64,000 nucleotides of DNA from Panax quinquefolius. Taxonomy: Eukaryota; Streptophyta; Magnoliopsida; Apiales; Araliaceae. The position numbers and the translations under genes were made by a program. The stretch covers positions 47,833,652 to 47,897,651 of the forward strand of contig CM035163.1 of the NCBI GenBank assembly GCA_020205615.1. Reading direction: 5' to 3'. The stretch's first letter is position 1, and every line of letters begins with the position of its first letter. Shown one piece after another: positions 16,797 to 63,971 of the stretch. The notes under the pieces are model-generated. The model was not told the DNA's origin and searched no databases. It was given only the letters and a program-made list of their open reading frames with translations.

Positions 16797-17264
16797 TTGC
16801 AAAAATATAAATATGTTCATATAGGACTTGTCCAAGTAGCTTTTAAACATTTGACTTTACTTGATCAAAATACCAGTATTCAATGCACACTTAGAGATGG
16901 TAGGTGTCTCAACTGGAAAGCCTCCCTTATGGGTGCTATTGAAACTAGTCTTGCTCATGGACCAGTTTATTTTAATATTTATCCGAACTTAAGCGTTGCT
17001 TTAACTGATAATAATTTGTCAAAAGTTTTAGAAATGAGAATTATATCTCATGGCTATGAGTATCTACCAGGATCTCCTCCTTTTGCCATATTATTCCGTA
17101 TTCATCTTAAAGTATTAACTACTTTAAATCCCTATATCAGGAAACAAAGCCAACAAGGACATACTGTCCTAATTGACACTAATCTGAAAATCAAATACCT
17201 CATGGTATATATGAAACAAATACTCCAAACAGAAGACCTTATAGTCCTACTGCTAGTGATATGA
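16797..17264 (+). pseudogene. Caulimovirid movement protein (30K superfamily), 5'-truncated
   Basis: The 155-residue frame has no upstream ATG. It corresponds to the part of the minus-strand copy after its first 20 or so residues. The recognisable core is YVHIGLVQVAFKHLTL, then a segment around RDGRCLNWKASLMGAIETSL and HGPVYFNIYPNLSVALTD, typical of 30K movement proteins of badna-, petu- and florendoviruses. Such proteins enlarge plasmodesmata for cell-to-cell spread. A stop and a frame change separate it from the next segment, although in the virus it would be the N-terminal part of one polyprotein. Confidence 0.8.
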
Positions 17265-17271
17265 ATTTTGA

Positions 17272-25914: not shown

Positions 25915-27459
25915 CTAGATAGTAGTAGGCTTTTCAGTAGTAGAAACATTTTGAACACGTTTCATGACTTCTCTCATGCTATCATGTTTATCTCTTAATT
26001 TTTTACGGACTTTTTCAGCAAAGAAAGTAGGGAGGCCGTCAATAAATTTGGCCTTCCAATGCTCACTGTTAGCATCTACCCTTTGCATGACTTTCATGAG
26101 AAAAACATCCTTATACCATCTAAAATGGGTCAATGAGGGGCATCGAAGGTTCTGTAAAAGTTCTCTACTCCTATCAATATTCATAAGTCCCGGTCCAACA
26201 AAATGGTGGAGGACTGCTTGAACTAAGGTGTAACAAGCGTCTTCCTTCCTGGTTAGAAGTCTAGTAACAGGATCAATTTCTTCTTTATAGACTTGAAGAA
26301 CTTCTGTTCTCTGTTTATCATTAAGCATATTATCCCACCATCCTTTAAAGATGCGGTGAAGTTTATTTACTAAGAAACGACGATCGGTGATCGATTATCA
26401 TTCTACATTACAGACAATGCATACATCATGATATGATGGATGGTTTCAATATTTGATATTGGTCTTGCCATCAATATTCCATTCATAAATGGTTTTTCCA
26501 TGGTAAGATTTTTTTGAGAATGAAGAAAGTCTTCTTCATACTGAGTAATATCCCGAGGAGTAGGTCTAGGGTAATAATACCTACTAGGTCCAGATAAAGC
26601 CATACGATTTATGGGTTTTTTATTGTAAGTAGTTTTATTAATATTTTGCATTTCCTGAAAATTATTTTGGATTTCCAAAATATTAATAGGAGAAAAGGAA
26701 TCGGAATCTTCTTCATTATAAGTATTAGCATTACTGGTTTGTGAAGAGGGCTGTCCAGACATCATATTGATCTGGGACGTGGAGGCAGGAGTGAGGTTTA
26801 AATCTTTCATTTTATTTAAAAGATTATCAATGAACTCATTATCTGATTTAGAAGATTTCATTTTAAAATTACTAACTTCTAAGGGTGGTTTAACTGCTAC
26901 ATGAGTCAAGATCAAGCTTCCGAGGAGTAACTTGACAATTATCATTAATATGATGAATTTGTTCTTATCTCAGTTAACTGCTTTCCTACAATTTGAAGGA
27001 ATAAATTTGTATAATTATTCGTTTAGATAAGGGTAAAATGTCTTTTATTTTAACATCTTCATGTTGACGGGTATTTTAGTAATATCAACACATACGGATT
27101 AATAACTAAAAGGTTCGTGTTTTCATTTCCGAGCTAAGTTCAAGGACTTAGGAGGTGGATGAATAGATTGGATAACACTACCATTAGTGGTAATCCAGTC
27201 CTTTTGGATTCCCGTCAACACATTTAGTTGACTTTCATTGTAAAGGTCTGATTTAGAAACAAAATCATAATACCATTTAACAAATGATAAAATACATGGT
27301 TCTTGTTGAGATAAGTATAAAATTAGATTTTATTTCTACTAATTTATCATTATTATGATTCTTAAAATACCAATTTCTAAAATTCTGATATTTATCCTGC
27401 ATGAACTCCTGGTTTAAATATTGGCGAATTTTACTTTTTAGAGAAAAATCCATTAACAT
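25915..27459 (-). pseudogene. Coat protein region of the minus-strand copy, zinc knuckle deleted
   Basis: Pieces at 27459-27277 (linker), 26945-26403 (Asn/Ser-rich region with ISGQPSS-like segments) and 26328-25915 (capsid core with HWKAKFIDGLPTFFAEKVRK) match the plus-strand copy. At about 25985 the sequence jumps from the RDKHD segment straight to the region before the protease, skipping 767 bp of the plus-strand copy including the CCHC knuckle. The shared 7-mer GCATGAG sits at the junction. Confidence 0.78.
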
Positions 27460-27466
27460 TCAAAAT

Positions 27467-28204
27467 TCATATCACTAGCAGTAGGACTATAAGGTCTTTT
27501 GTTTGGAGTATTTGTTTCATATATACCATGAGGTATTTGATTTTCAGATTAGTGTCAATTAAGACAGTATGTCCTTGTTGGCTTTGTTTCCTGATATAGG
27601 GATTTAAAGTAGTTAATACTTTAAGATGAATACGGAATAATATGGCAAAAGGAGGAGATCCTGGTAGATACTCATAGCCATGAGATATAATTCTCATTTC
27701 TAAAACTTTTGACAAATTATTATCAGTTAAAGCAACGCTTAAGTTCGGATAAATATTAAAATAAACTGGTCCATGAGCAAGACTAGTTTCAATAGCACCC
27801 ATAAGGGAGGCTTTCCAGTTGAGACACCTACCATCTCTAAGTGTGCATTGAATACTGGTATTTTGACCAAGTAAAGTCAAATGTTTAAAAGCTACTTGGA
27901 CAAGTCCAATATGAACATATTTATATTTTTGGAAAAAGGGATATAAATCTTTAACATGCAATAAATATAATATTTCATCATTATTCGTAAAAAGGAACAA
28001 AGATGTTCAAAGGTTTTAATAATTCTTTTTCTTCGATAAAATCAAAGGTTCCAATTTTATAAATAGTTTCGGTTTGATTTTAGGAAGGGTCCATTTGTCA
28101 AGGGCTTCCTTAACATCCCGGTAGCAATAAGTTCAATTGCTTCCAAAGTAGAAGTCAAGTATTGCTATCTTGTTATTACAGTATGAGGTGGAAAAATCAG
28201 TCAT
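27467..28204 (-). pseudogene. Movement protein and ORF1 start of the minus-strand copy
   Basis: The longest frame (28000-27467, 177 residues) covers the 30K core (YVHIGLVQVAFKHLTL to about the segment PPFAILFRIHLKVL). It is more complete at its N terminus than the plus-strand copy, with about 20 extra residues. An ATG at 28204, about 70 bp past the primer site, is a plausible ORF1 start, but stops and frameshifts lie between 28204 and 28000. Confidence 0.75.
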
Positions 28205-28274
28205 TTTTCAAAGTGATCATACATGCATAATTTATAAGTAATATATTCATTAATATGTCAATAAACTTAACATG

Positions 28275-28286
28275 GCTCTGATACCA
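28275..28286 (-). promoter_or_regulatory. Viral primer binding site (initiator tRNA-Met)
   Basis: The minus strand reads TGGTATCAGAGC, the exact site used by caulimovirids to prime minus-strand DNA synthesis. It is preceded by CCTCCCTCCTTTG, the same words that end the plus-strand copy at 23854. It defines position 1 of the circular viral map. Confidence 0.88.
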
Positions 28287-28305
28287 AAGGAGGGAGGATC
28301 AAAGA

Positions 28306-28955
28306 AGTCAAATACGGATAAAGTACTCTGCCAGGTTGCAAATATCTGTTTAGATGCTAAATTCTGAACATCTTTTTTAAATATCTGTTTTGCATCTGAG
28401 CAATCAACTCGGATTAAAAAGTGCTGATTCAAAAGATCATCCTGAAATTTTAAAACACATTTAACAATTGAAAGACATTCCTTCTTTATAGTATGATAAT
28501 TTAAAGAGGGTCCTTTCCAAGTTCCCGAAGTAAAACGGACAAGATCTTCTCTTTTACTGTTAGGATTAAATTGCTTTAAAATCCCACCATATCCTGTGTC
28601 AGAAGCATCAGTTTGAACAATCTTTTTCCAATCGGGATTAGGTAGGGAAAGACAAGGTATTTGTTTAACCCTGGTTTTGATTTTTATTACTGCTTCAGTA
28701 TGTTCATTAGTCCAAGGATAAAGGATTTTTTTCATAATCGAGTATACAGGATAGCAGTATCTTGGGAAAGATTTGGGTAAGAATCTCGAATATAATTAAG
28801 ACTTCCCAAAAATCTTTGCAGTTGGTTAATACCTTTAATTTCGTCTGGAAATTTAGATGCAAATTCGATACATCTATCAATTGGAATTATAGTTCCATTG
28901 AAAATATTATGTCCAAGAAATCTGATTTTAATTTGGAAATATCCCAAAACTTTTG
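28306..28955 (-). pseudogene. Displaced RT thumb and RNase H fragment
   Basis: Frames 28947-28732 (IKIRFLGHNIFNGT, then a segment around QRFLGSLNYIRDSYPNL) and 28735-28306 (QTDASDTGYGGIL and a segment around NYHTIKKECLSIVKCVLKF) match 21012-21655 of the plus-strand copy. The fragment ends within RNase H at an SVFDF segment. It is fused through a short CTTTGAT-type overlap to the leader end and primer site. Its left limit in viral coordinates coincides with the point where the main minus copy stops. Confidence 0.8.
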
Positions 28956-47430: not shown

Positions 47431-48689
47431 TGTGACGCCCCCAAAATAGGTATACATCACCCATCTTGAGTCGCCAAATACATGGTACAAAATTCAACTA
47501 CAACTTAATTATACAACAGTCGTGTAAAATACGACAAAATATATGCTGTGAGTTTTAATACAAATATTGTTATCTAGACAATATTCATACTCAATTGAGT
47601 CCTCATTACATTTATTATCACACTATTTAATGTAATAGTGAGGACTACTAATGCTATTATGCGTTCCGACCGTCACTTTGTTCCCCGACTAGTCCCCGCC
47701 ACGTTCTCATTTTCAAGAGAACAATGAAAGTAAAAGGTGAGCTCAACTAGCCCAAAGAAGAAATATTATGACTAAGATAATACGTAATAAATTATAAAGA
47801 ATGGGATAACAAAAGAAATCACCGGGTATGTGATGTAATCGCATGAGATAGGTTATTCCAACGTAATAATAAATAATGGAATGTGTCATGCAGAACGCAC
47901 GTACGAGGATATTCCAATGAATAATAAATAACGGAACTGTGTCAAAGCGTAAATTCGAATCAAGCTGTGATGTTCCAACAGAATAATAAATAATCGGAAT
48001 TCTGTGTCACGCAGAACGCGCATTTATGTGATGTTCCAAATGTAATAATAAAGAATGGAATAATGGAAGAATTTTACCATATATGCAACGATTTGCATGA
48101 TAAAGTTATTCCAACATAATAATAAAGAATGGAATAATGTAAGAATTTCACCAAGTATAGGGTATCACAGATATACAAAGTTATTCCAATGTAATAATAA
48201 AGAATGGAATAACAGAAGTTCTCTTCATGAATATGAAAGAAATAATACCCATTACCTTAGAAGAAACGAAACTGGATATAGAAGTAGTGAAGTAGCGGAA
48301 TACTTTTCTTCTTTCTCTCTATAGTTTCCCTCTCTAGAGTTTCAGTGAATTCGTAAGAAATAATGAAGGAATGGGCTTCTATTTATAGAAGAATGGAACA
48401 GATACTATTTGATAAATAATTCACGGACGCAACAGAAATATTATCACGGGCTGAATTTTGTTGAATCATCAAACGCCTATTTTCAAATGCTAACATACTT
48501 AGTCAAACAAAACAAAAAATATTATATATTTATATATATAACACATGCTTATATGGGAAAAAAACAATATATATATATATATATATAATCTTCCACCATC
48601 CACCAAATCTCCCACAAATGTTACTTATATATATAAATCAATTACCTTCCTAGGAAGGCAACTATCCCCTCCCCCATTTTACTCCAGAG

Positions 48690-48732
<43 letters not shown>

Positions 48733-49533
48733 CTTATCTATATATATATATATATATATATATATAACAAAATTGAGATAACTTCTACCGATAATTTTAA
48801 AAAAATGGGTAAATGGGGGTCCAAATAATAAGCAACAAATACCTCATAAAAAAAATCCCCTCAATATTTTTAACAACATTTATCATTATTATTATTATTC
48901 ACAATATTAATCGACCAGGCCATTTCCAGGAAAGAGGGGGCTTTCCAAAAAGGATTTCTTCCTATTGGCGCACAATTAGGTGACCAAACCTCTCCTGGCG
49001 TAACTTCAGTACATCGTTAATATTGCAAATAATAATATTAATAACTTCTTCATCTCAATTATTGATTTAATAATATTTAAAATATCGACAATAATTGAAT
49101 CAATTAACGTGAGATACTATGCAAAAATTCATCAAGCAATAATTGAACAAAACTCGAGTGACTTCTCACGTAAGCATCAATAATCAATATCGCGCTACTC
49201 TTGCAACCACACGTATTCTCGTACTTTTAACATGAGGTGTTTCAACAGATTAATGATAAAACTTATTTTGTTATTTTTATAAAATATTTTTGTCATTTCT
49301 CAATTCGACAATAATTCCGTTCATGGGTCCATTAATGATTTGTCTTGCCGCATTTAATATTCCATGTTAAAATGAATATTCTCCCACCAATTGAATATTA
49401 TCTAATAACTTGCGATTTTGCAAAATTTATAACTATTACCCACAACTATAACATTATATCAAATTCATTCCATAATATTCAAAAATGATAATTATAGAAA
49501 ATTCATCTTTATTCATAAAAGTTGGGTCTTACA
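47431..49533 (-). repeat. LTR a of the tandem chromovirus array
   Basis: On the plus strand it begins TGTGACGCCCCCAAAATAGG and ends GGGTCTTACA, immediately followed by a polypurine tract read on the minus strand. It is therefore the 3' LTR of the internal region to its right. It is shorter than LTR b because about 600 bp (matching roughly 58960-59585) is missing near 47780. It contains tandem repeats with TTATTCCA...TGGAATAA cores (about 47850-48215) and a minus-strand TATAAATA box at 48387-48380. Several (TA)n tracts lie at 48560-48770. Confidence 0.85.
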
Positions 49534-49545
49534 ATCTCCCTTCTT
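49534..49545 (-). promoter_or_regulatory. Polypurine tract of array element a
   Basis: The minus strand reads AAGAAGGGAGAT before the LTR start TGTAAGACCC. The same arrangement appears beside LTR b at 61252. Confidence 0.75.
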
Positions 49546-49559
49546 ATGAAATTTCGCCT

Positions 49560-50070
49560 CGAAATTAGGTTACGACTGGTATGTCAAGAGGTAAGGATAC
49601 CTTGATTTCATTTCAGATTCTAACTTCCAGGTCATTTCCTCAACATCGTGGTTCCTCCATAAAACTTTGACTTGAGGTATAACCTTGGAGCGTATAATAT
49701 GTTCCTTCTTATCCAATATTTGAACATGAACCTCTTCATACGTTAAATCTTCCGCTATTTCGTCCGATTTCTAACTCAATAATGTGGTTCGGGTCTTTCA
49801 CATATTTACGTAATATGGATATATGAAAATATTATGAACACGAGATATACTTTTGGCAGAAAGCGAGTCATAAAGCTATGATCCCCTACTCGATCGAGGA
49901 TTAAAAATGGGCCAATGAATCGAGGATTGAGCTTTTCTCTCTTTCCAAATCTCGTAACTCCTTTCCATGAAAGCAACACGTAATAAACACATGATCTCCA
50001 ATATCGAATTCCATGTCCTTTTGATGAAAATCAGCATAACTCTTTTGTCGGTCTTGCGAGGTTTTTATAC
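49560..50070 (-). pseudogene. Integrase C-terminal part, element a
   Basis: The minus strand encodes ERIKTSQDRQKSYADFHQKD, then EFDIGDHVFI, and in shifted frames FGKREKLNPRFIGPF and LWRNHDVEEMTWKLESEMKS. This is the C-terminal integrase/chromodomain region of Tekay/Del Ty3/gypsy elements. Frameshifts break it. Its upstream half lies beyond the CACTA insertion, at 55529 onwards, and the two halves read together across the insertion site. Confidence 0.75.
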
Positions 50071-50073
50071 GTT
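50071..50073. repeat. CACTA target duplication GTT (left)
   Basis: GTT precedes the terminus CACTACTAC. The same GTT follows the other terminus at 55526-55528. A 3-bp duplication is characteristic of CACTA transposition. Confidence 0.88.
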
Positions 50074-50099
50074 CACTACTACAAAACAGTAAATAGATA

Positions 50100-50400
50100 A
50101 CGCGGAAAAAACGTTGTGGTTTCAATCAGAAAAACGTCGTGGTTATTTGACACCCTTACACAACGTTTTTAAAACGTTGTAGTTAGACACCTTTTACAAC
50201 GTTTTTAAGAAAAAAACGTTGTAGATTTGTTTTTCATAAATTAGTAAAAGCTTGAAAACGTTGTAGAAGGTATGATTCCATAACGTTTTCTGGCTAAAAA
50301 TGTTGTAGTTTAATATATTAGACAACGTTTAGACACATTTACACAACGTTTATAAAATGTTGTAGATTAAAAAAAAGAAAAAAAAAGTTGTGGTTCACCT
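50100..50400. repeat. Subterminal ACAACGTT repeats of the CACTA element
   Basis: About ten copies of ACAACGTTTT or its complement AAAACGTTGTAG lie within 300 bp of the left terminus. Fewer copies lie at 55420-55505 near the right one. They are typical transposase-binding arrays of CACTA elements. Confidence 0.75.
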
Positions 50401-50632
50401 ACATTACCAATACACCTGCAATATGCTAATGCCATGATATATAGCTAAAAGGTCTAAATTCTCATTTAAATTTAAAGCCAAAATGTATCAACCATTCAAA
50501 ATACATCTCAATAATACCATTCGTTTATAGTTTCAAATTACTACATCCACAAAATATATACCAAACTATCCATATATACATCTCAAATTTACATCACACA
50601 GATTATCTTCCGCAGGGGTATTTAGTAATTAA

Positions 50633-50854
50633 TTAATTATCTTCCGCAACCACGGTACTGACCTCACCTTTCTCAAGCAGATGATAGAAAACTCTGGCTT
50701 TCTTCTGCTCATTCCAGTGATACTTCTTCCATGCCAAACCAACAATACAACCCATTAAAGCTACCACAGCTATCTCCTTCACCAAATTTGGTCCCTTCAG
50801 TGTCACATGAAGAATCCTACCACCACCCATTTAATTGCAGCACCAAATAACAAC
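50633..50854 (-). CDS. Captured cytochrome c oxidase subunit 5C (COX5C) exon, intact frame
   Basis: A minus-strand ATG at 50830 opens a 65-residue frame that ends at TAA 50633. It reads MGGGRILHVTLKGPNLVKEI, then a single hydrophobic membrane segment (VVALMGCIVGLAW), then HWNEQKKARVFYHLLEKGEV. Plant COX5C is about 63 residues with the same start, helix and HWNEQ-K-R-FY-LLE-GE signature, so this frame is full length and undamaged. It would be a small inner-membrane subunit of respiratory complex IV. A splice acceptor (GATGCAG) at 50855 lies 24 bp before the ATG, like the leader intron of normal COX5C genes. Whether it is expressed, or merely a recent capture, is unknown. Confidence 0.75.
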
Positions 50855-51543
50855 CTGCATCCATGCCAATTTAATTGGTCAATGTCTATTTTGGATGAAT
50901 TAGCAACACATTCGCATGCATATTTATCACACAAAATAGGTACAAGATAAGATAATTTGGAAACAAAATGAAAAATATCCCGACTGAAACTTAACACATC
51001 TTCATACTGATATGGTAATGTCTAAATTCAAACACACTATGGTATGGTTGGCGGATATTAAGCACAACATCAAGAAACTAGAGGCAGAATTCATGACCAA
51101 CACAATTACAAACGAAAAAATGAACATATTATGAAGAAAAATGCCTGCATGATCATATATAATGCATGAGGGAGAGACAAGATGATTAAGGAGAAATGAC
51201 CATTCCTCTGTTAACAAATCTACTGAATGATGATACAAATTTACTCAATGGGTTCAGGCCATTACTTCCCAACACTCCAATTAGGAGTACCACAGATGTG
51301 ATGTGAAAACACCACACTCTGTCTCAATTAATCCAAAAGACAGTAAAATATCTTATCTATATTTAATAAACCATAAATTCATGTGAGAGGGATTCCTTTC
51401 ATTGAGATATTGCTTTTTCATCTTGTATCTCTCTACGAGAATAGAAATCTTGGTGTAATTAAAAGTTAATCATCTAAATCGTAAATGGATAAACCAAATA
51501 AGCTTTAGACATGGAAACTTTACAAAGTGAAAAACATTGTTAC
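50855..51543 (-). other. Intron-like sequence between the CSI1-like and COX5C pieces
   Basis: It starts with a donor GTAACA at 51543 and ends with an acceptor GCAG at 50855. Frames within it (51238-51002, 50997-50803) have no recognisable domain. It could be the COX5C leader intron fused to foreign sequence. Confidence 0.4.
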
Positions 51544-51835
51544 CTTCTGAGTTTTGCATTGTTTTCTAAGCAAGAATTTAGGTTACTCCTGCACTCCTCT
51601 AACTCATCGAGTGATCCTGATCTAAAAAGAGATACCAGTACTAGAACAGCCTGAGAAAGTGATCCAACAGCACTGAAAGCATTTTCACGTGTATCAATAA
51701 GCTCCAGCAGCTGCTTCAAGGATAATTTTTTTTCTTGTAAAGATGAAGAACTCTGGCGCAGCTGCTCAATGCATTGAGCAACACTAGCTAATGTCTCGTC
51801 TGGATCCTCCATGCTGCTGCGCTCTCTGCAAATAA
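51544..51835 (-). pseudogene. Captured CSI1-like (cellulose synthase interactive) exon with a fused tail
   Basis: After an acceptor (TTTGCAG) at 51836, an ATG at 51812 opens a 90-codon frame beginning [20 protein letters not shown]. It continues with [20 protein letters not shown] and a [10 protein letters not shown] segment. This is the conserved N-terminal armadillo start of plant CSI1/POM2, the protein that links cellulose synthase complexes to cortical microtubules. After SGSL the sequence leaves CSI1 and reads [20 protein letters not shown], a coiled-coil-like segment I cannot assign, ending at a donor (AAG/GTAACA). The exon is therefore a fusion of two sources. CSI1 itself is over 2,000 residues, so only a tiny piece is present. 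Confidence 0.65.
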
Positions 51836-52636
51836 TTTGGGGGAAAAAATATTTAAGCTAAATTGACAACTTGTCTACCTTAAAAAATCAAGCTATAATT
51901 AGCTTCTATATAAGCAAAGGAACACCATTGTCCAAACTTTAGGGTGAAAAATAATATAAAATCCACTAAAAACAGATGATTAAAATAATATCTAATGAAA
52001 ATTGAGAATTTAAGCTATATTTGTCAAGTAAATATAAGCACAACAATATCATTCCCTAGATGGCTAGATCTCAATTCAACAATGGTTTTTATGCCAAACT
52101 AATTGGGATAGGTTGTTTATTATATTCCTACATCTAGGGTAAAAATAATATACAAGCATCACATAAAGCCTCTATTAAACAGAGTATCTGTAACAGATTC
52201 ATATCAACAACAACTCTCAAGCTCAAAAACTGACATCTTAAAAAGGATTTGCTAAAGGAAAGCCCTATTTGGTGATACTCAGTTTCTGCAGATATAACAC
52301 AAAGTAACAAATGGTCCCCACAGATATCTACTGATTTTAACAATCTCTAATAGAGAGTTTGAAATTTACAAACCTGAAGACAAACGTGATGGCAGTTAAC
52401 TACTACAAAACAGTAAATAGATAACGCGGATTATCTTTAACTGTTTAGGGTTGCAAGAATATAATCATATAATATGATATGGCATATTAGTATTATACTA
52501 AAATATGTTGTCAGTCTTAAGATTACCATGTGAGAGAGTGAAATTAATATAGAAATAAAGCTGCAACGCTACAGATAATTTTACTAAAAATTTTTTCATA
52601 TATAAAATAACTATGTAACATCATGGAAGTATATAC
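51836..52636 (-). other. Intron-like / filler sequence with an internal copy of the CACTA terminus
   Basis: It runs from the amine oxidase donor (GTATAT, 52636) to the CSI1-like acceptor. No exon is recognised. At 52399-52428 about 30 bases repeat the element's own left end (from CTACTACAAAACAG to AACGCGG), pointing to an internal rearrangement or nested terminus. Confidence 0.5.
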
Positions 52637-52822
52637 CTGATTGTATGCTTCTCCAGGCTTACAATCAACAGCCATATCCATACGAGCAACAAAGAAATGT
52701 TGATGAACAGGTGCATATAGTCCTGGCGTAATTGTCGTACCATATTTTTGAAATTCTCCTGGTTGCAATGCTCGTAAGCTGAGAATTCCAGTAAGTTTAA
52801 CTTCAGCCTCGATTTTTCCATC
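52637..52822 (-). pseudogene. Captured copper amine oxidase, second exon piece
   Basis: After an acceptor (TTACAG) the minus strand reads [20 protein letters not shown], then [20 protein letters not shown], then [15 protein letters not shown] before a donor (CAG/GTATAT). This is the conserved catalytic-domain region of plant copper amine oxidases, which oxidise polyamines. It includes the HQHF segment that supplies copper-ligand histidines. It joins in phase to the piece at 53545-53439. The rest of the enzyme is absent. Confidence 0.8.
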
Positions 52823-53438
52823 CTGTAATCACAAATAATTAACAGATTAACATTAAGTGCCGACAAAATTAAGCTGAAAACCAGTCGCACCACTGTACTA
52901 ATAGTAATAGTAATTAACATTGGCAATAGTAAGATGAATATTATGAACTTACGCTTCTAAAAAAAAAGAAGATGAATATTTGGGAATTCTTGAAAAAAAA
53001 TTAAAGTAGAAGTATTTTCTTTTTGGGGTGCTATATGGAAATAGTTTAGATTTACTTTTTCGGTCTTCACTCTTTTGAGTGAAAATCCTCTGCACAAAGT
53101 CAAAATGAATTCATATAGTACAAAATAGGATATTGCTAAACACTTTACAACAAAGAACATTCACAAACCCTCGCGAAGTGGAAAACACCAGAAACACACC
53201 AATCCTGATGAATAATTTTGTGTATGTGTAGCAATTTTTTAAATGGAAAGGGGATCACTTTGTCTTAATTCTAAAACATCAACTCAACTCCGCCTTTTAT
53301 CCTAAACAAGTTAGGGTGGGCTGAAAATGAAATGTGCTCCATATGATATGTGAACTTGAAGCATTAAGAGTGAGTTTATGCAAAATCAAAACCATACAAG
53401 TAAATGGAAGTTGTTCATATAATGATACATTCAACTTG
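52823..53438 (-). other. Amine oxidase intron
   Basis: It lies between two amine oxidase exons that are consecutive in the normal protein. It starts with GCAAGT, so this is a GC-AG type intron, and ends with an AG acceptor at 52823. No gene is inside. Confidence 0.55.
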
Positions 53439-53545
53439 CCTGATAAAAGTGCCAATAGAAACCATATTCATAGTTAGCCACGGTACATATGAAAGAAACT
53501 GTGAGTCGCCTAGATCTCCGAACTTCTGCTAAGCCTTCAAACACA
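53439..53545 (-). pseudogene. Captured copper amine oxidase, first exon piece
   Basis: The minus strand reads [20 protein letters not shown] followed by [11 protein letters not shown], ending at a GCAAGT donor. It directly precedes the next piece in the normal protein. Its upstream edge is a 41-bp palindrome at 53532-53572, which marks the fusion point to the aconitase side. Confidence 0.78.
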
Positions 53546-53572
53546 CTGTTATTAACAGTGTGTTTGAAGGCT
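53532..53572. repeat. Perfect 41-bp palindrome at the capture junction
   Basis: The 20-bp arm AGCCTTCAAACACACTGTTA is followed by one T and then its exact reverse complement. It lies between the aconitase-derived and amine-oxidase-derived parts, overlapping the start of the latter. Perfect short-spaced inverted repeats like this suggest foldback synthesis during end joining. Confidence 0.9.
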
Positions 53573-53655
53573 AAAATACTGACGGGACAGACAGAACATC
53601 GGGTTTTTACAATCTTGGTAAACATAAACATAATATCATAAAACGAAGACAATAC

Positions 53656-53774
53656 CATTGTCTGCAATTGCAGAAGCAACTGATTCATCAAGGTCATCGG
53701 AGTTCCCAATACAGGTTGTGCAGCCATATCCAATAATATGAAATCCCTGTTGGTTCAAATACTTTTGCAGGTCG
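53656..53774 (-). pseudogene. Captured aconitase, third exon piece
   Basis: After an acceptor (TTTGTAG) the minus strand reads [20 protein letters not shown], then [19 protein letters not shown], ending near a GTATTG donor. The [10 protein letters not shown] segment holds a cysteine ligand of the aconitase iron-sulphur cluster. It joins the previous piece exactly as in the intact enzyme. Confidence 0.82.
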
Positions 53775-53864
53775 CTACAAATAGAAAAATCGGGACAAAA
53801 TTCAGAGAGAGAAATGCAGTTTGCAATAGAAATAGAAACGTTTCTAAGTAATTGTTTGCATTAC

Positions 53865-53932
53865 CTCTGTTGAAAATGTTTTGTAACCACTCCAGAACCT
53901 GGTGCAAGACTTGTTTTTACCCATGGCTTAAC
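53865..53932 (-). pseudogene. Captured aconitase, second exon piece
   Basis: Between an acceptor (TTAACAG) at 53933 and a donor (GAG/GTAATG) the minus strand reads VKPWVKTSLAPGSGVVTKHF. This is a signature of aconitate hydratase just before the cluster-binding region. The exon is short and in phase with its neighbours. Confidence 0.82.
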
Positions 53933-54033
53933 CTGTTAAATAATTATACAGATACAATGTAAAGGAACCAAACTAACATAGATCTCCCCCCACCCTTCAA
54001 GAAAGGCAAAATATATGTATATACACATATATT

Positions 54034-54067
<34 letters not shown>

Positions 54068-54124
54068 GAAGTTACCATATTAATCATCTCTTTAAACCAA
54101 CACAATTGAACAATAAATACTGAC
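53933..54124 (-). other. Aconitase intron with TA microsatellite
   Basis: It lies between two consecutive aconitase exons and has a GTCAGT donor and an AACAG acceptor. It contains (TA)n at about 54018-54064. Confidence 0.6.
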
Positions 54125-54312
54125 CTCCAGTCCAAGTTCACAAGTCTTCTTCGTGACAAGACCAGCTCCAAGCATGACACTAGGATTCGACGTGTTTGTA
54201 CAACTTGTAATAGCCGCAATCACAACACTACTATGTTTGAGCTCAACAGGTTGTCCGTGGAATGAAAATTTGACAAATTTCTCTTGCGCATCCTTTGGTA
54301 TAGCAAATCCAT
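54125..54312 (-). pseudogene. Captured aconitase, first exon piece
   Basis: The minus strand reads [20 protein letters not shown], then [20 protein letters not shown] and [16 protein letters not shown] up to a GTCAGT donor. The [10 protein letters not shown] segment is a classical aconitase signature with a cluster-ligand cysteine. Aconitase interconverts citrate and isocitrate. The N-terminal half of the enzyme is missing and there is no obvious start codon in phase upstream. Confidence 0.82.
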
Positions 54313-55410
54313 GTGTAGATTAGAAAACAAAAACTACATAAGGTAATTGATCAGCTACTGAACCTGAAATACAACACCACAGATGAGCCAATACGGCTCT
54401 CTCCGCTCCACTCATTCAAATGTTAGCTAGCCTGACTAGTAACTGCAACAAACTATAGTACATCTAGATGATCAGCATATTAAATTAAGAACAATAATCT
54501 GGGCTAAGTGAATGTTTATAGGAAAAATCTCAAGTATATGTTTATAAACCACAAGGAAAAATAATCAACAGTATCACATCCTAAATACAACAATTTTACC
54601 AATCTCTTACCTTGAATCCAACAAGACACTGTAATTATTGAATAGAAATATAGAATAATACATTAGCAGAACAACAACCTAACTAATGCAATAAACCCAA
54701 ACAACAAAACCCAGCAAAACAGAAATTACCAAATAATCACCTATGAACAAATAACAAACGCTAAAACGAGCATAGGAAAAAATAATACATCCAATCTGGC
54801 CATGAGCAGGATAAACAATGAATCAAAACATGAAGCACAGATCGGAACAACACAGATAACATCCAGATTTGAACACTAAAGGAATAAGCAAAAAATCACA
54901 GTGAAAGCCAAAATGAACTACTAGATCGAGCAGATCCCACATCCAAACTCCAACCCAAGCAGAACATCAAGATCTAGACAAACCCCTACTAATCTATAAC
55001 AGAGAAGCCCCGCGATCTAAGCCTTCGGACTTAGCTATATAAGATTGAAAAAAAGAGTTTCAGAGGGGTGCCCATAACAGCCGCCGATAAAGCTCGAAAC
55101 AATACCCAGTTTGTAAAGAAATGGAGAAGAAGAGATGGTGGGCCGGAGAATAGGATAAGGAAGGAGAAGAGGAGTAGGTGGGCTGAATGGAACGATGGGT
55201 GAAGGAGAAGGAAGGACATGCTCGCCGGATGAGAGCCCTTAATCGCATCAGCTTTGTCCCAAATGCTCAAGACCGTAACTGGTTTTAATTTCAAATTTTT
55301 ACTTCCGTGTTTTAATTTTTTGCTCCGTGTTTTTTTAGATAGATAATGTTTTTTTTAAAAAAAATTATCTATTTAAAACCAAAAATTGCCTAATATAAAT
55401 ACATAACATT
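54313..55410 (-). other. Leader-like region upstream of the captured exons
   Basis: About 54360-54990 reads on the minus strand like a plant 5' leader intron (T-rich, GATCTG and GTTTTG words). About 55020-55290 is pyrimidine-rich, with a 62-residue frame (55248-55060) starting MRLRALIRRACPSFSFTHRS, rich in Arg and Ser like a mitochondrial presequence. It could be a captured promoter/leader and first exon, but I cannot name the source gene and the coding call is weak. Confidence 0.35.
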
Positions 55411-55525
55411 TTTTCATATGCATCTATAACGTTTTGTTAAAAAACGTTGTAAAAAAAAATACCACAACGTTTTTTATAAAAATGTCATCTTTTAAGTGTT
55501 GTCTTTTTATAATTTTGTAGTAGTG

Positions 55526-55528
55526 GTT
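55526..55528. repeat. CACTA target duplication GTT (right)
   Basis: This is the partner of 50071-50073, directly after TAGTAGTG. Confidence 0.88.
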
Positions 55529-56685
55529 GTCGGATCGTTTGAATCTTTTTCCAGAATATACGTAGTCAATCCCATCCCCAACAACGCTGCTTCACCCAAT
55601 TTCATCCTAAAGATACCGAGATCACACTTTCTTGGATACAACACTTTCTTAATTCTGGCGCCTCGAATGGGTAATACATTAATACTTTGATAAGCTGTTG
55701 TTGTAGGAAAACTCCACTGATGGTAAGAACATCCCAACTTCCTCAAGTCGAGGACACGAGTCTTAATAAATCTTCAAGAGTTTGAATAGTCCTCTCGATT
55801 ATTCATCCATCCGAGGATGATATGCCGAACTAAATCGTAAATCATGTGCGTAGCTTTTTGCAAACTAATCCAAAATTATGAAGTGAATCTTGGGTCTCGA
55901 TCGTAAACTATGGATCTTGGCATACCATGCAATCTTACAACCTCGTTTATGTACATACGAAAGCAAGACGTTCAAGTGTATAAGTTTCTCGTATAGGTAA
56001 GAAATGAGCAGACTTGGTCAATCTATCAACAATGACCCAAATTGCATCTACGCTCGAGAAACCTTAGGAAGACCGAAGAACGAAATCCATGGTAATGTGC
56101 TCCCACTTCCATTCTAGAATTTCAAGTGGTTGCAATGGACCTTTTGGTACTTGATGCTCTGCCTTGACTCGTTGACAAGTTAAACACCTTGAGATGAACA
56201 ATGCTATCTCTCTCTTCATATTGCCCCACCAAAATGTATGTCGAAGATCATGATACATTTTGGTACTCCCAAGATGGATTGTAAATGGTGTGTCATGCGC
56301 CTCCATCATGATTTTGTACTTTAACTCGGGATCGTTAGAACACAAAGTCCGGAGTTGACTCAAGTATTCCTTCTTCATCGATTCTTCGCTTTAAGATAGT
56401 ACCTTCTCAGACTTTCTTCCTCATACGCATCACTCTAGGAATGCAGAACAGCGAAGCTTTTAACTTTATCGATTAAAGTCGGTTCTACTCATATATTCTC
56501 CATCATCACGTGGGTCCCTGGAGTCTTTATCTCTATCTCCATCCTTTGCAAGTCATACAAAATGGGCCTCTGCGTTGACAATATCGCACCCGCATATGAT
56601 CTTCTACTCAATGCGTCAGCCCACACGAAAATCTACAACACCTTTTCCAATGATTCCACTTGGATAAGTTAGGAAACTCATAGAT
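55529..56685 (-). pseudogene. Integrase and RNase H end, element a
   Basis: The frame 56378-56064 carries the integrase zinc-binding region (HDTPFTIHLGSTKMYHDLRH, then WWGNMKREIALFISRCLTCQ) and the start of the catalytic core (WEHITMDFV). Farther down (56060-55530) core remnants continue in broken frames up to the CACTA insertion. Upstream, near 56630-56610, VWADALSRRSYAG marks the end of RNase H. This is typical Tekay/Del gypsy order on the minus strand. Reverse transcriptase and protease are absent. Confidence 0.78.
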
Positions 56686-56689
56686 CTAA

Positions 56690-58072
56690 CTCTAGAACTT
56701 GACCACACTTAAAAATTCAAAATATAATAGGAGATATGGTCAATTGAGTTTCATGTTCTATTTTCACCAAAATCTGATTTTTCAACCCTTTGTGATTTCT
56801 AAGAAACTTTCATGTTTTCACATAATAACCAACATAACTCATCATAACACTTATTAATACTTCATATACCCATGATTTTTATCAGTCCAATGCTTTTATT
56901 ATGACTCTCATCATAATCAACGTAACCAGATCATTTCCATAATTTAATAAGGAATGAATATAAAGGATCATTCACCACGCATGTGGTAATCCACATGGAC
57001 GAGTTATTCCAATGTAATAATAATAAAGAATAGAATAATGAAGGATTCACCATGCATGCGATAGATCGCATGCATGTGTTATTCCCAGCGTAATAATAAA
57101 TAATGGAACCAGTCCGTAGAACGTCATGCATGAGGATATTCCATGTAATAATAAAGAAACGGAACCGTGTCAAAGTAAATTGCAGACCGACTGGATGTTC
57201 CAATAGAATAATAAAGAATGGAATAACAACGAAATCACCATGCATACGGTGATTGCATGACATGTAAAGTTATTCTAACATAATAATAAATAACGGAACC
57301 GTGTCAAAGTAAAAATTATTGCCGGCTGGGATGTTCCAACAAAATAATAAAGAATGGAATAACAATGAAATCACCATACATGCGGTGCCAGATAGATCGT
57401 TATTCAATGTAATAATAAGGAATAGAATAGAAGAATTTCACCAAGTATAGGGTAGTCATGTATAAAGGTTATTCCAATGAATAATAAAGAATGGAATAAT
57501 GAAGTTCTCTTCATGAATATGAAACAAATAATACCCCTTACTTAGTACAACAAATAATATCCCTTACCTTATAAAGAAGAGTACTCGTGGTAGGGCTGGA
57601 TATACTTGAAGAAAACTCAGACTACGCGCCAAAGCTTTCTTAAACGCTAAAGAAATACGTTCAAGATTATAAAGAGGAATTCTCTACGATTTCTCTCTCT
57701 AGAGTTTGAGTGAATTCATAAGAAATAATGAAGGAATGAGCTTTATTTATAGAAGAATGGGTGAATAAGTAACCAATCCATGAACGGTCAGATTGATTTA
57801 CTTTTAAAGCCAGGCATTCAGATTGGTTTACAATAAAATATAATATATTCTATTTATAATCTAATAAAACGAATAACTTTATAAAAGTATTTTGTTTTAT
57901 ATAAAAAGCTTTCATTTTATTACATTAATAATACTAATAAAACAAAACTTCATCATCACTTACTTTGAAAATTTTTTAAATGTCACCCTTAACTTTAAAC
58001 TTTTAACAATTTAACTATTCACCAAAATAGAAAAATTGAATACTTTTATTTCATAAAATTCGGGGTCTCACA
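56690..58072 (-). repeat. Additional LTR-like segment inside element a
   Basis: On the minus strand it begins TGAGACCCCGAATTTTATG at 58072. It contains the same TTATTCCA...TGGAATAA tandem units (about 57000-57510) and a TATAAATA box (near 57755) as the array LTRs. It sits between gag (58406-58073) and RNase H, replacing the rest of gag, protease and RT. It is probably the remnant of a nested sister element after deletion. The left limit is uncertain. Confidence 0.6.
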
Positions 58073-58406
58073 AAATATCTTGCAGATATGCTTTATCCAC
58101 GTTTCCACCTTAAGTGGTTTTGGCTCTAAAAAAAACTCCGGTGGTCCCAGTTCCTTGAAGCGCTTAGCTGGATGACCATCGTCGAGAGTTGCCAGTGTCC
58201 ACCTGCATTACATGTGAGGCTGCTCTCTTGCGATGTTGCATGAATTGCATAAAGCCTCTGAACATTCCATCGTTCATCATCCGTCGGTGTTGTTGTTCAC
58301 TTAAGGATTGTCACCTTCCGATGTACATTATCACGATTATTGATCTCGTGAAGACTCAAGCGGTCTCACGTGCTCCATTGCTAATCTCAACATTCTCGGA
58401 TGCCAT
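58073..58406 (-). pseudogene. gag N-terminal part, element a
   Basis: A minus-strand ATG at 58406 starts MASENVEISNGARE, then after stops the reading includes KRFKELGPPEFFLEPKPLKV and ETWIKHICKIF, the typical gag core of Tekay/Del elements. The frame is cut at 58073 by LTR-like sequence. The plus-strand frame at 58189-58440 is its shadow. Confidence 0.7.
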
Positions 58407-58579
58407 TTTCAAATACTGCCACAAAACAAAGGTTAATTGACATGCAATATATTATCCCTATACTCTGACCGTCCAATTAAATGCCAAATAAACTTAGGTA
58501 GGTCATATTAGCAAAGGAATTCCCCGTCTCTCCCCTCCTAGTTCTTGTCTCACATCTCAGTCAGGGATCATATCCCTAA

Positions 58580-58591
58580 GCTTTGATACCA
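58580..58591 (-). promoter_or_regulatory. Primer binding site, element a
   Basis: The minus strand reads TGGTATCAAAGC two bases from the LTR end. It is one base different from the canonical initiator-Met site and shows that LTR b serves as 5' LTR for the internal region on its left. Confidence 0.8.
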
Positions 58592-58593
58592 AC

Positions 58594-60303
58594 TGTGACG
58601 CCCCCAAAATAGGTATACATCACCCATTTTGAGTCGCCAAATACATGGTACAAAATTCAAATACAACTTAATTATACAACAGTCGTGTAAAATACGACAA
58701 AACATATGTTGTGAGTTTTAATACAAATATTGTCATCTAGACAATATTCACACTCAATTGAGTCCTCATTACATTTATTATCACACTATTTAATGTAATA
58801 GTGAGGACTACTAATGCTATTATCTCGGACCGAGTCACTCCGTTCCCCGACTAGTCCTCGCCACGTTCTCATTTCTCAAGAGAACAATGAAAGTAAAAGG
58901 GTGAGCTCAATGACCCAAAGAAGAAATATTATGACTAAGATAATCTGAGAATAAATTATCGTTAGCCTTCAATGTTGTTAAATGATATAATATAACAAAC
59001 ATCAAGTTTAAGCTGCGCAATGAACAAGCAATCCATTAAAAGAGTCAGTAGAGGATAAAATCTACTATCTTTTATGATTTAAAAGGTTTTTCATCACTTT
59101 TATCATTTGGGACTTAGCTTAATAAATAATCCACATCATCCACGCACTACTTGCTAAGGATATTCGTGTATTCATCAATGGTCATGATCACCAACAACAA
59201 TCGTCCATCAATGCACTACACAGCCAATGAGGACTTTTTACCACATCATTTGTAACATTACGGCCATGATTATCTTGAATAATCCTCGGTCATAATCATA
59301 CCAAGTCCATCTATGCACTCACTGTAAGGCTGTATGACTTTCAACATAATATAAACATGAGGATGATGACAATGATATAAGATTTTAATAAAACAAGTTC
59401 AAGAATTAATTTATTCAGGAACCAATAACGTCCAAATTGTCAACATGATACTTCTTTGTAAATTAAAATTCAAGAATGCTCAGAAGAATATTTCCATGAA
59501 AAGATACTGGATGAAGCACAAATATCAAGGATATTCCACAAATTTCATGGAGTATAGAAGTTAAAACTTTAACCAACTGAGTATAATAAAGAATGGAATA
59601 ACAAAAGAAATCACCAGGCATGCGATAGACCATACGCATAATGAGTTATTCCAATAGAATAATAAATAACGGAATCAGTCACGGAAGCGCACAAACATGA
59701 TATTCAACAAAATAATAAATAACGGAACCGAGTCGGGTAAAATTCAGACCGACAAGATGTTCCAATGTAATAATAAATACGAAAAATCGTGTCACGCCAG
59801 AACGCACGTAAAGGATGTTCCAATAGAATAATAAAGAATGGAATAATGGAAGAATTTCACCATGTATGCAAGATTGCAAGATGTATTAAAAGTTATTCCA
59901 ACATAATAATAAAGAATGGAATAATGTAAGAATTTCACCATGTATAGGGTAGAATAAGCGTATCTGAGTTATTCCAATGTAATAATAAAGAATGGAATAA
60001 CTGAAGTTCTCTTCATGAATATGAAATAAATAATACCCCTTACCTTAGAAGAAACGAAATTGGATATAGAAGTAGTGAAGTAGTAGAATACTTTTCTTCT
60101 TTCTCTCTATAGTTTCTCTCTCTAGAGTTTCAGTGAATTCGTAAGAAATAATGAAGGAATGAGCTTCTATTTATAGGAGAATGAAACGGATATATTTGAG
60201 AAATAATTCACGACGCAATGCAGAGAAATATTATCACGAAATTTGAATTTTGTTGAATCATCGACGCTTATTTTCCCCTGTGTCATTTCATATACACCAA
60301 AAT

Positions 60304-60363
<60 letters not shown>

Positions 60364-61251
60364 CTCCCACCATCCACCAAATCTCTCACACATGTTACTT
60401 ATATATATAAATCAATTACCTTCCTAGGAAGGTAACTACTCCCCTCCCTCATTTTACTCCTATATATATATATATAAAAAAAACAAAACTGAGATAACTT
60501 CTACCGACAGTTTTAAAAAAATGGGTAAATGGGGGTCCAAATAATAAGCAACAAATACCTCATAAAAAAAAATCCCCTCAATATTTTTAACAACATTTAT
60601 CATTATTATTATAATTCACAATATTAATCGACCAGGTTGTTCCCAGAAAATAGGGGGCTTTCCAATAAGGATTTCTCTCTATTGGCGCGCAATTAGGTGA
60701 CCAAACATTTCTTTGGCAGAACTTCTAGACATCGTTAATATTACAAATAATAATATTAATAACTTCGTCGTCTCAATTATTGATTTAATAATATATAAAA
60801 TATCGACAATAATTGAATCAATTAACGTGAGATACTATGAAATAATTACTGAAACAATAATTGAACAAAACTGAGTGACTTCTCACGTAAGCATCAATAA
60901 TCAATACCGTGTGCTACTATGCAACCACGCATATTCCTGTACTTTTAACACCGGGTGTTTCAACACTTAACGATAAAACTTCCACCGTTATTTTCATAAA
61001 ATATTTTTGTCATTTTCTCAATCCGACAATAATTCCGTTGTGGGGTCCACCAATGATTGTGCCATCGTACGAATATTCCCTATTAAAACGAATATTCTTC
61101 GACCAATTGAATATTATCTAACAACTTGCGTACTTTGCAAAATTTATAACTATTACCCACAACTATAACATTATATCAAATTCATTCCATAATATTCAAA
61201 AATGATAATTATAGAAAATTCATCTTTATTCATAAAAGTTGAGGTCTTACA
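58594..61251 (-). repeat. LTR b, shared by two internal regions
   Basis: This 2,658-bp LTR begins (plus strand) TGTGACGCCCCC and ends GAGGTCTTACA. A primer binding site abuts its left end (58580-58591), and a polypurine tract plus the internal 3' end abut its right end (61252 onwards). One LTR thus serves two elements. It holds tandem TTATTCCA...TGGAATAA units (about 59580-60005), a minus-strand TATAAATA box at 60175-60168, and a (TA)n tract at 60307-60361. Confidence 0.88.
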
Positions 61252-61370
61252 ATCTCCCCTTCTTATGAAATTTTGCCCTCAACATTAGGGTACATACCTG
61301 GTATGTCGAAGAGGTAAGGATACCTTGATTTCATTTTAGATTCTAACTCCCAGGTCATTTCCTCAACATC
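61252..61370 (-). pseudogene. 3' end of a second internal region (element b)
   Basis: It begins with a polypurine tract (minus strand AAGAAGGGGAGAT) and matches 49534-49650 of element a, the end of the integrase reading frame and the short 3' untranslated part. It is interrupted by a solo LTR and resumes at 63977, continuing beyond the window. Confidence 0.8.
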
Positions 61371-61375
61371 GTGGT
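61371..61375. repeat. Solo LTR target duplication GTGGT (left)
   Basis: The same five bases follow the solo LTR at 63972-63976. In element a the unoccupied site reads GTGGTTCCTCC (near 49650), proving the insertion. Confidence 0.92.
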
Positions 61376-63971
61376 TGTGACGCCCCCAAAATAGGTATAC
61401 ATCACCCATTCTGAGTTGTCAATACATGGTACAGAAACAACTACAACTTTATTATTACAACACTAAAATTGTGAGTTTGAATACAAATATTATCTTCTAG
61501 ACAATATCTATACTCAAATAAATCCTCATCACATTTATTGATACATTATTTTACAAAATGGTGAGGACTACAAAACAACTCTCTAGAACCTTCATTCCAT
61601 ACCCAGGCGACTGCACTCGCTTATATTCTCGCCTCCGAGAAGAAAAATGGAACAAAAAGGAAAAGGGTGAGCTCAACTAGCCCGAAAGAAGAATATTATG
61701 ACTAAGATAATATACAACAAATTATCATTAGTCTTCAACGGGGAAAAAAAATCTAATAGAATATAATGTAAAACAAGTTTTAAATCAATATTCATGCAAT
61801 GAAATAATAATTCATTAGAAGAGTTAAGTAGAGAATGCAAACTACTATCTTCTATGTATGAATTTAAAAGTTCATCGTCATCTTTTATCCTGTAACATCA
61901 ATCAATATATATCCGGAATCAAATATTCATCTTCGCACTACAGCCAAAGATATTCATCGGTTGGGTCATGCCATCTAAACACTGCTCATCTTTTGCACCT
62001 ACAGCCAACGATATTCATCGAAATCATTCATCTTTGCACTACAGTGCCAAAGATATTCAATAATATCATCATTTAAGGCGAGGATGATGAAAAATATTTT
62101 AAAGAAAGCGAATCCGGTGAAACAAAATGACAAGGATTAAGGATTAAGGATTCAGTACTTTGTTTTATCCATGTCCAAAATACCTCAAAAATAATCATAG
62201 TGGTGTAAAATTCAAGAATGATCAAAACATGGATACAATCAAAGCTAGTATCCACAATAGATATTTTAGATTTAAAAGGAAAATTTTCATTTTTCGATGA
62301 ATAGTCTTCAGATTCGTGAATAGTGTCAGATATCGTGAATAGGCCAGTACACGTGAACGAAGAATCTCAGACACCAAAAGTTCCAAATTTGATAAAAACT
62401 TGAGATCAATATTTGAAGATAATGATATTGAAGAAATAATATCATTACGAAAAAAAATTATATCCCTTACCTTGTAAAAGACAAGACTCTGGTAAACACC
62501 TGGATAAAGGCTATGACTTGAACTTGCATAGTATAGCAATACTCAAAATATACTCAAAATACTTACAAGAATATTTCGATAATATAGAGAGAAAACTTGA
62601 TTTTCGGTGTGATTTTCAATTCTAACCTAAGCACCCTATTTATAGGAAAATGCTTTAAGAACAAAGTAGAAAATTTAATATAATATTATTATTATTTGTT
62701 AAAAATTTATACGCCCACTCTTGGAGATCTGATTTTACCAATCAATAACACATGCTAGACCCACTTAATACACCAAAAAACGTTTTTCTTGAAAAAATAA
62801 TTAAAACTTCCAAAAATCAATTATTTTGAACTTGAACTTCAATAATTCATAATAAATAGCCCTTTTGTCAAAAAATTGAATCTCGCAAATTTTATAGGAA
62901 ATTCAATTCTCTACAACTTTGCGAGAAAAAGTTTTTCCAAATTCCAAATGAAATTGAATAAAATCCACAAGCAGACGATTTTATAATTTATAATCAAATT
63001 TCACCGATAATTGTGTCCACCAACACACAAAATATGTGTTAAACATTTAATGCCACAAAAATACTCTTCCTCCTCATATACTCATATATTCCATATTCAT
63101 TATAAAAAATATCACCGTTAATATATTATTAAAATAATATATTTAAATGAATTATTTTATCGGAAAAAGATAAAATATTAATTTTCAACAATTGTCATTT
63201 AAAAATTTTCCATCTATATCCACATAAAATCAATATTTTCCTCATCATATAAATCAATAATTAATTATTCACAAATAATATTACAGAATCACAAGATCGG
63301 GCAACCGTGTAGTTCCTCAGGAAGAGGGGCTTTCAATAAGAATTTCTCCTTCTTGGCCAAGCAATTAGGTGACCAAACTTCTCCTTAGAAGCAGAACTTT
63401 CTAGACATTGCCAATAATGTTATCTAATAATATTATTCAGATAATATGAATTATTGCTTCGATAATGAAAAATAATGTAATGACAATTATTGAAACAACA
63501 AAGAATATAAAATATCAACGCAAAGAATTATTAAATCAATAAAATAATCGAGCGGTAATTAATGTAACCATTATTGAGAAGTGTCTTCTTACGTAAGAAT
63601 CAATAATTGGTGCAATACAATCTGGCTCTTCTTGTGTTTTAACCAATTTAGTATTTTAACAAAGATAACTCAGTAATGACTTCACGCCGTTATTTTTAAA
63701 CAACTTATATTTGTCATTTTCTTCATCCAATCACTTTCCGTTATGGGGCCCACAAAAAAGACTCATACCGTCGCATTTAATATTCCCCGACAGCAAGAAT
63801 ATTCCACGACCAAACGAATATTCCCCGACAATAATGAATATTTTATAACCACTTGCTTATTTTAAAATATTTGCGTATTTTACCCATAACTATCCACATT
63901 AATCAAATCAACCCTTACTATTTCAAAATAGAGAAAATTAAATTTCATTAATAATAAGTTGGGGTCTTACA
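61376..63971 (-). mobile_element. Solo LTR of the 30215-element family
   Basis: This 2,596-bp LTR (TGTGACGCCCCC...GGGGTCTTACA on the plus strand) has a perfect 5-bp duplication and no internal region. It is a product of LTR-LTR recombination. It is the reverse-oriented relative of 30215-32904, sharing the ATATCTTTGGC tandem units (61925-62060), the TATAAATA box (62644-62637) and GAATATTC palindromes (63770-63840). The frames at 61858-62539 are not genes. Confidence 0.9.

Follow-up and report, generated by a model that had tools for sequence, protein, structure and literature searches.

The window analysed here, a 64,000-nucleotide stretch of the Panax quinquefolius genome on contig C13 of a 3.57-Gb plant genome assembly (G000), contains at positions 50074–55525 a CACTA element of 5,452 bp in which pieces of several host genes are lined up. 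As stated in a first-pass annotation of this DNA, the termini are perfect: CACTACTACAAAA from 50074 and TTTTGTAGTAGTG up to 55525 match over 13 nt and form the terminal inverted repeats CACTA...TAGTG of the CACTA superfamily, and a 3-bp target-site duplication (TSD), GTT, is present on the left (50071–50073) as well as on the right (55526–55528). The left terminus (CACTACTACAAAACAG...) and its subterminal region (50074–50400, plus strand) contain eight ACAACGTT/AACGTTGT motifs in 327 bp, and the right subterminal region with its terminus (55270–55525, plus strand) contains two in 256 bp; these short repeats, found in both orientations as in other members of the superfamily, occur nowhere else in the element or the window. 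A six-frame Pfam scan of 50400–55260 revealed no transposase domain and matched aconitase and copper amine oxidase. Judged from its ends and contents, the element is a gene-carrying, probably non-autonomous CACTA of the Pack-CACTA or Tgm-Express kind.

Five host gene pieces lie within the element, every one on the minus strand, an arrangement for which the chance odds are 1 in 16; the first-pass annotation had counted at least four in one orientation. Sources in G000 were placed for four pieces, that of COX5C provisionally, and a best match was found for the fifth, a coiled-coil gene fragment. For each search 40 candidates were scored (of 2716 for left ends, 396 for the oxidase, 413 for CSI1 and the coiled-coil fragment, 2072 for COX5C and 46 for the leader side of aconitase), and all copy counts in G000 are therefore lower bounds. 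The oxidase, aconitase, CSI1, coiled-coil and COX5C pieces match separate host loci and not one contiguous locus, as is expected of a Pack-CACTA, and gene capture by a CACTA element, proposed earlier, is borne out; by these matches, the element carries pieces of five host sources.

The aconitase and copper amine oxidase pieces are both named by Pfam matches, in agreement with the first-pass annotation. The oxidase segment (52428–53535, minus strand) comprises exons 52637–52822 and 53440–53533, the latter truncated at its 5' side (Pfam E-values 6.4e-12 and 1.2e-16). Its source lies at C6:9812806–9813927 (96% identity), the C22 locus being 95% and a second C6 locus 93% identical; the GC splice donor of the window oxidase is common to the C6 loci and not to C22, and is native to the C6 source. 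The aconitase segment (53551–54622, minus strand) comprises exons 53656–53774, 53865–53932 and 54125–54310 together with the 3' end of the exon before them (Pfam E-values 4.1e-10 and 1.4e-07). It matches C21:389808–390848 at 94.8% over 53551–54606, with a probable homeolog at C11:6524622 (92%). The adjoining short piece (54620–54691, minus strand) has an 86% match about 2.6 kb off at the aconitase locus of C21 and a 97% match at C6:130104899. The region upstream of the exons had been called leader-like as a whole; it consists of aconitase gene up to 54622 and the short related piece up to 54691, and only 54692–55290 (minus strand) remains leader-like. No convincing enrichment of intron-enhancement motifs was found in that region.

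The COX5C segment (50612–51177, minus strand) holds an intact 65-codon open reading frame (ORF) at 50636–50830 and a 5' part with an acceptor at 50854. The identity, as named earlier, is upheld by a match to PDB 7jro_h (E-value 1.4e-20); Pfam and NCBIfam gave no match, nor did a protein search against a database in which plants may be poorly represented. A locus at C10:9392099–9392675 (94%), with a probable homeolog at C4:12188238 (88%), is a candidate source only, its COX5C protein departing from 7jro_h and other loci matching parts of the segment at up to 98%. Five G000 loci match exactly the stretch 50470–50878 and two a shorter one (to 50816–50817), and all seven also match briefly at about 50400–50445, as if this were a unit of its own.

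The single CSI1-like exon drawn earlier at 51544–51825 is a fusion of two genes, only part of which is CSI1-like. The coiled-coil fragment (51481–51613, minus strand; exon part 51544–51612) encodes part of a coiled-coil protein, which we take to be kinesin-like, with no family match in Pfam, NCBIfam or PDB. Its best match and candidate source is C16:4693160 (97.7% over 133 bases), further loci matching at 89–98% over about 114 bases. Since the related copy L009 carries this fragment without the CSI1 piece, the two are consistent with separate captures. The CSI1-like segment proper (51610–52397, minus strand) consists of an exon part at 51613–51825 and an intron; its source at C22:35919108–35919923 matches at 93% over 51610–52397, and the source exon remains open beyond the break seen in the window. 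Searches of Pfam, NCBIfam and PDB gave no significant match, and the name CSI1 and the armadillo look of the source are our own assumption. The source genes form diverged pairs on separate contigs (C6/C22, C21/C11, C10/C4 and C22/C3), which suggests an allotetraploid genome.

Internal joins and related copies

Besides the fifth gene piece, the first-pass annotation had missed an inner copy of the terminus at 52398–52430 and a palindrome at 53532–53572. The former repeats 33 bp of the left end of the element itself; it is located inside the CSI1-like segment, is preceded by GTT (together 52395–52430, plus strand) and occurs in the window copy and in the relatives L043 and L044. The uninterrupted site, GGCA(G/A)TT-TATGTAA, is found in relatives L016, L011 and L051 and in the CSI1 gene L050; the three copies with the inner terminus read GCAGTT-AACTACTACAAAA. 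The inner terminus begins exactly where an insertion would, after a 3-bp site native to the CSI1 gene, and is devoid of subterminal motifs (none in 52398–52760 versus eight in 50074–50400). A mutated or truncated inner terminus is the relic predicted by the Pack-CACTA fusion model, and in all three copies it takes the form of this 33-bp AACTA sequence, which we infer to be what is left of a nested left end.

Microhomology was measured at three joins. The terminus relic and the oxidase share GGA (3 nt, random-join chance 0.073), the oxidase and inverted aconitase sequence share AGCC (4 nt, 0.020), and the coiled-coil fragment and CSI1 share AGTG (4 nt, 0.022). The 19 nt at 53532–53550 exactly repeat, in inverted orientation, part of the aconitase intron next to them, and their AGCC is common to the oxidase exon. 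Because the aconitase source gene has only one arm of the resulting 41-bp palindrome, the other being this inverted copy, the palindrome is a snap-back.

The ends of the element are common to other copies in the genome, as a search proposed with the first-pass annotation confirmed. Apart from the window copy, 39 left-end copies were scored and 20 of them fetched, and matching 3-bp TSDs were present in 12 of the 16 copies tried, the window included; they did not match in L009, L016 and L022, and L012 is without a left end (L010, L018, L019, L024 and L028, fetched with no located right end, were left out of the count). The five-piece unit of the window has its own GTT duplication and has hence moved as a unit at least once. 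Subsets of the pieces with shared joins are found at C286, C18, C444 and C6, as befits captured pieces mobilised together. L010 and L013 represent a form with a 1474-bp deletion, joined 50983/52458, L013 being full length with the TSD TTC, and L043 and L044 (on C286 and C18) share the inner terminus and the right half with the window. Long internal DNA of other kinds is found to the right of the uninterrupted site in L016 (2306–4780) and L011 (1960–6908), possibly representing further captures, and L017 has a 1.4-kb insert (906–2336) between its left end and COX5C.

Two further loci bearing aconitase, on C586 and C24 (L046 and L048), run natively past the break, and C586 matches through 55290 as an element would; both are candidate elements. 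The aconitase segment differs from its source at 40 of 1041 positions (3.8%) and the oxidase segment from its own at 24 of 1104 (2.2%), and the aconitase capture would be the older one since it lies further from its source.

Assembly of the element

The reading that we judge somewhat better than even is that the element is a composite of two related CACTA elements, an aconitase-bearing one nested in a COX5C- and CSI1-bearing one, which were fused by template-switching mis-repair and have moved jointly. According to this reading, a first element, A, would have taken up COX5C, the coiled-coil piece and the CSI1 piece, and a second, aconitase-bearing element would then have come to sit inside it, at GTT in the CSI1 intron. 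The inner element would then have lost its left part, apart from 33 bp of the left end; in filling the gap, template-switching repair would have copied 1.1 kb of a copper amine oxidase gene and snapped back into the aconitase intron. The inner element, left without its left subterminal motifs, could move only by means of the left end of A and its own right end, and the gene pieces would thereby have become one mobile unit, whose relatives multiplied and decayed. Taken together, the joins at 52398, 52428 and 53532 are all accounted for by nesting plus repair. Furthermore, the right half probably derives from an older aconitase carrier, because the C586 and C24 loci run past the break and because aconitase is the more diverged piece.

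Several observations weigh against this reading. The exact five-piece set was seen in the window copy only, and this, together with the status of the two longer aconitase loci as candidate elements only, weakens the case for nesting. L010 and L013 descend from a common ancestor and not from the window copy, since they share an oxidase-exon deletion absent from the window, and in L043 and L044 the part from COX5C to the CSI1 exon is replaced by 1.5 kb of other DNA. The first base of the inner terminus is A, not C, in all three copies that have it. Trees of the A half (the COX5C/CSI1 side) gave no supported fork, and the microhomologies come from three joins, further ones lying between COX5C and the coiled-coil fragment, at 54622 and at 54691. 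A pattern search for the right-hand nested junction (terminus-GTT-TATG...) returned no match, its positive-control patterns likewise giving no answer, and the 40 candidates that were scored, out of 396, included no free-standing terminus–oxidase element. As a separate observation, a search for the origin of the replacing DNA (2245–3744 in L043, with a counterpart in L044) found none.

The main rival of the nested reading, which we regard as unlikely, is a single template-switching chain resembling microhomology-mediated break-induced replication or fork stalling and template switching (MMBIR/FoSTeS), with no nesting at all. Such a chain would run from the CSI1 piece through a GTT microhomology to the flank of a terminus, on to the oxidase and, by the snap-back, to aconitase and the right end. 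It could likewise yield a 33-bp terminus piece, a further point against nesting, and it agrees with the 3–4-nt microhomologies at all three measured joins and with the snap-back, itself a mark of template switching; moreover, the terminus relic is only 33 bp long and the junction pattern search found no nested intermediate. What it does not account for as readily is that the copied piece starts at base 1 of the terminus directly after the native 3-bp site of CSI1, as an insertion would; it also needs a donor flanked by GTT, and the unequal divergence of aconitase and oxidase from their sources speaks against one event. Very unlikely, in our view, is that, with neither nesting nor template-switching repair, ectopic recombination in sequence common to related CACTA copies shuffled their halves: one right half is indeed common to different left parts in the window, in L010/L013 and in L043/L044, but the measured joins show 3–4 nt of identity instead of long homology, and the inner terminus is left unexplained.

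Coding potential and surroundings

It had been proposed that the aligned exons, with splice sites largely kept, could give a spliced chimeric transcript. All six splice donors are present, one of them GC, and five of the seven acceptors. The acceptor of the first full aconitase exon has been lost by mutation, the source reading CTACACAG/GG and the window CTACACAT; copies L010, L013 and L044 keep an AG there. The acceptor of the first oxidase exon was never captured, the break falling inside the exon. Aconitase is joined to the oxidase in frame and the oxidase to CSI1 out of frame, the COX5C frame differs from that of the exon before it, and in the first aconitase exon about 45 codons precede the first in-frame ATG. 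In the aconitase and oxidase segments, exons diverge from their sources much as introns do (22 mismatches in 655 positions versus 42 in 1490); the 150 synonymous sites show 6 changes and the 498 nonsynonymous sites 16. Among the eight full-length COX5C matches in the window and the 20 fetched copies (L012 and L024 having the 3' part only), four are broken and four are open, a 3-nt insertion being present in one of the open ones. The parts tested, namely aconitase, oxidase and COX5C, have a neutral-looking decay without visible selection. A spliced chimeric transcript is possible, and the earlier interpretation is partly supported, just as the observations behind it are partly confirmed; the gene pieces look like passengers and not like a working new gene. 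That the same-orientation pieces form a functional chimeric gene giving a spliced, selected transcript or protein is thus scarcely credible, for all their shared strand, largely complete splice sites, in-frame aconitase–oxidase join and the splicing precedent of Tgm-Express1 as that element is described, and a selected gene was rejected on the neutral-looking divergence, the broken COX5C relatives and the missing acceptors.

The window copy of the element lies in the pol region of a long terminal repeat (LTR) retrotransposon, presumably of gypsy type by a pol motif, where it would have landed after its assembly. This host element occupies 47431–61376 on the minus strand, with LTRs at about 47431–49653 and 58594–61376, and when the flanks of the CACTA copy are joined a readable pol frame spans the insertion site. 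An age estimate from the LTRs was abandoned, the three LTR blocks being unevenly similar (83–94% identical) and too rough for a date. Immediately after the right LTR, at 61376, the start of the LTR is repeated once more. Elsewhere in the window, the ORF list contains two sets of ORFs that are very similar and inverted relative to each other, at 16797–18489 (plus strand) and 26403–28735 (minus strand), which we take to resemble proteins of endogenous plant pararetroviruses.

Comparison with known elements

CACTA elements of the Tpn1 family in morning glory reportedly carry captured host exons, and the Pack-CACTA fusion model is said to originate with Catoni et al. in 2019. A literature search found no paper on the present gene combination. 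A close likeness is to Tgm-Express1, a soybean CACTA element at wp that is described as 5.7 kb in length and whose captured fragments, from five genes unrelated to one another, are spliced into chimeric transcripts (PMC1947982); the two elements are similar in size and both contain exonic as well as intronic parts of five unrelated genes, and the first-pass opinion that four unrelated genes in 5.4 kb are unusual is therefore weak. As far as that account goes, Tgm-Express1 lies in a gene intron and its pieces serve as cassette exons of alternatively spliced transcripts, whereas the window element lies in a retrotransposon and is known from DNA alone; for the latter, in contrast, gene sources, related copies and the uninterrupted internal site are in hand.

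In the fusion model for Pack-CACTA and other Pack-TYPE elements, as it is outlined in these sources, neighbouring elements move as one after their internal ends mutate or vanish (PMC8903248, PMC13317346). The present case differs in that one element was apparently nested in the other and that the inner end looks to have been truncated by a repair adding an outside gene. Microhomology-guided template switching is described as bringing gene DNA into the Pack-TIRs of animals, under the gap-filling or FoSTeST model (PMC8277862); unlike these, the element studied here is a CACTA of a plant, and it combines several captures with a snap-back. How CACTA elements collect unlinked gene pieces is still open, and a 2026 review states that an undiscovered mechanism may exist (PMC13317346).

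Five-gene capture by a CACTA element and the fusion of neighbours were thus known already, and the stronger finding here is the proposed assembly route with its unusually readable history. More tentatively, and with rather less than even confidence, we suggest that such a route may act as a ratchet: once template-switching repair had damaged the inner end of a nested insertion, that insertion, along with the newly copied gene, would be fused permanently to the element hosting it, and gene-rich Pack-CACTAs would grow by fusion, their joins being readable base by base in related copies. The element also calls for caution, in that a transposon may contain aligned and mostly open exons without these amounting to a gene. 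The sources, the uninterrupted site, the truncated inner terminus, the microhomologies and the snap-back all come from a single family in one genome, which makes the route of nesting plus repair directly testable.

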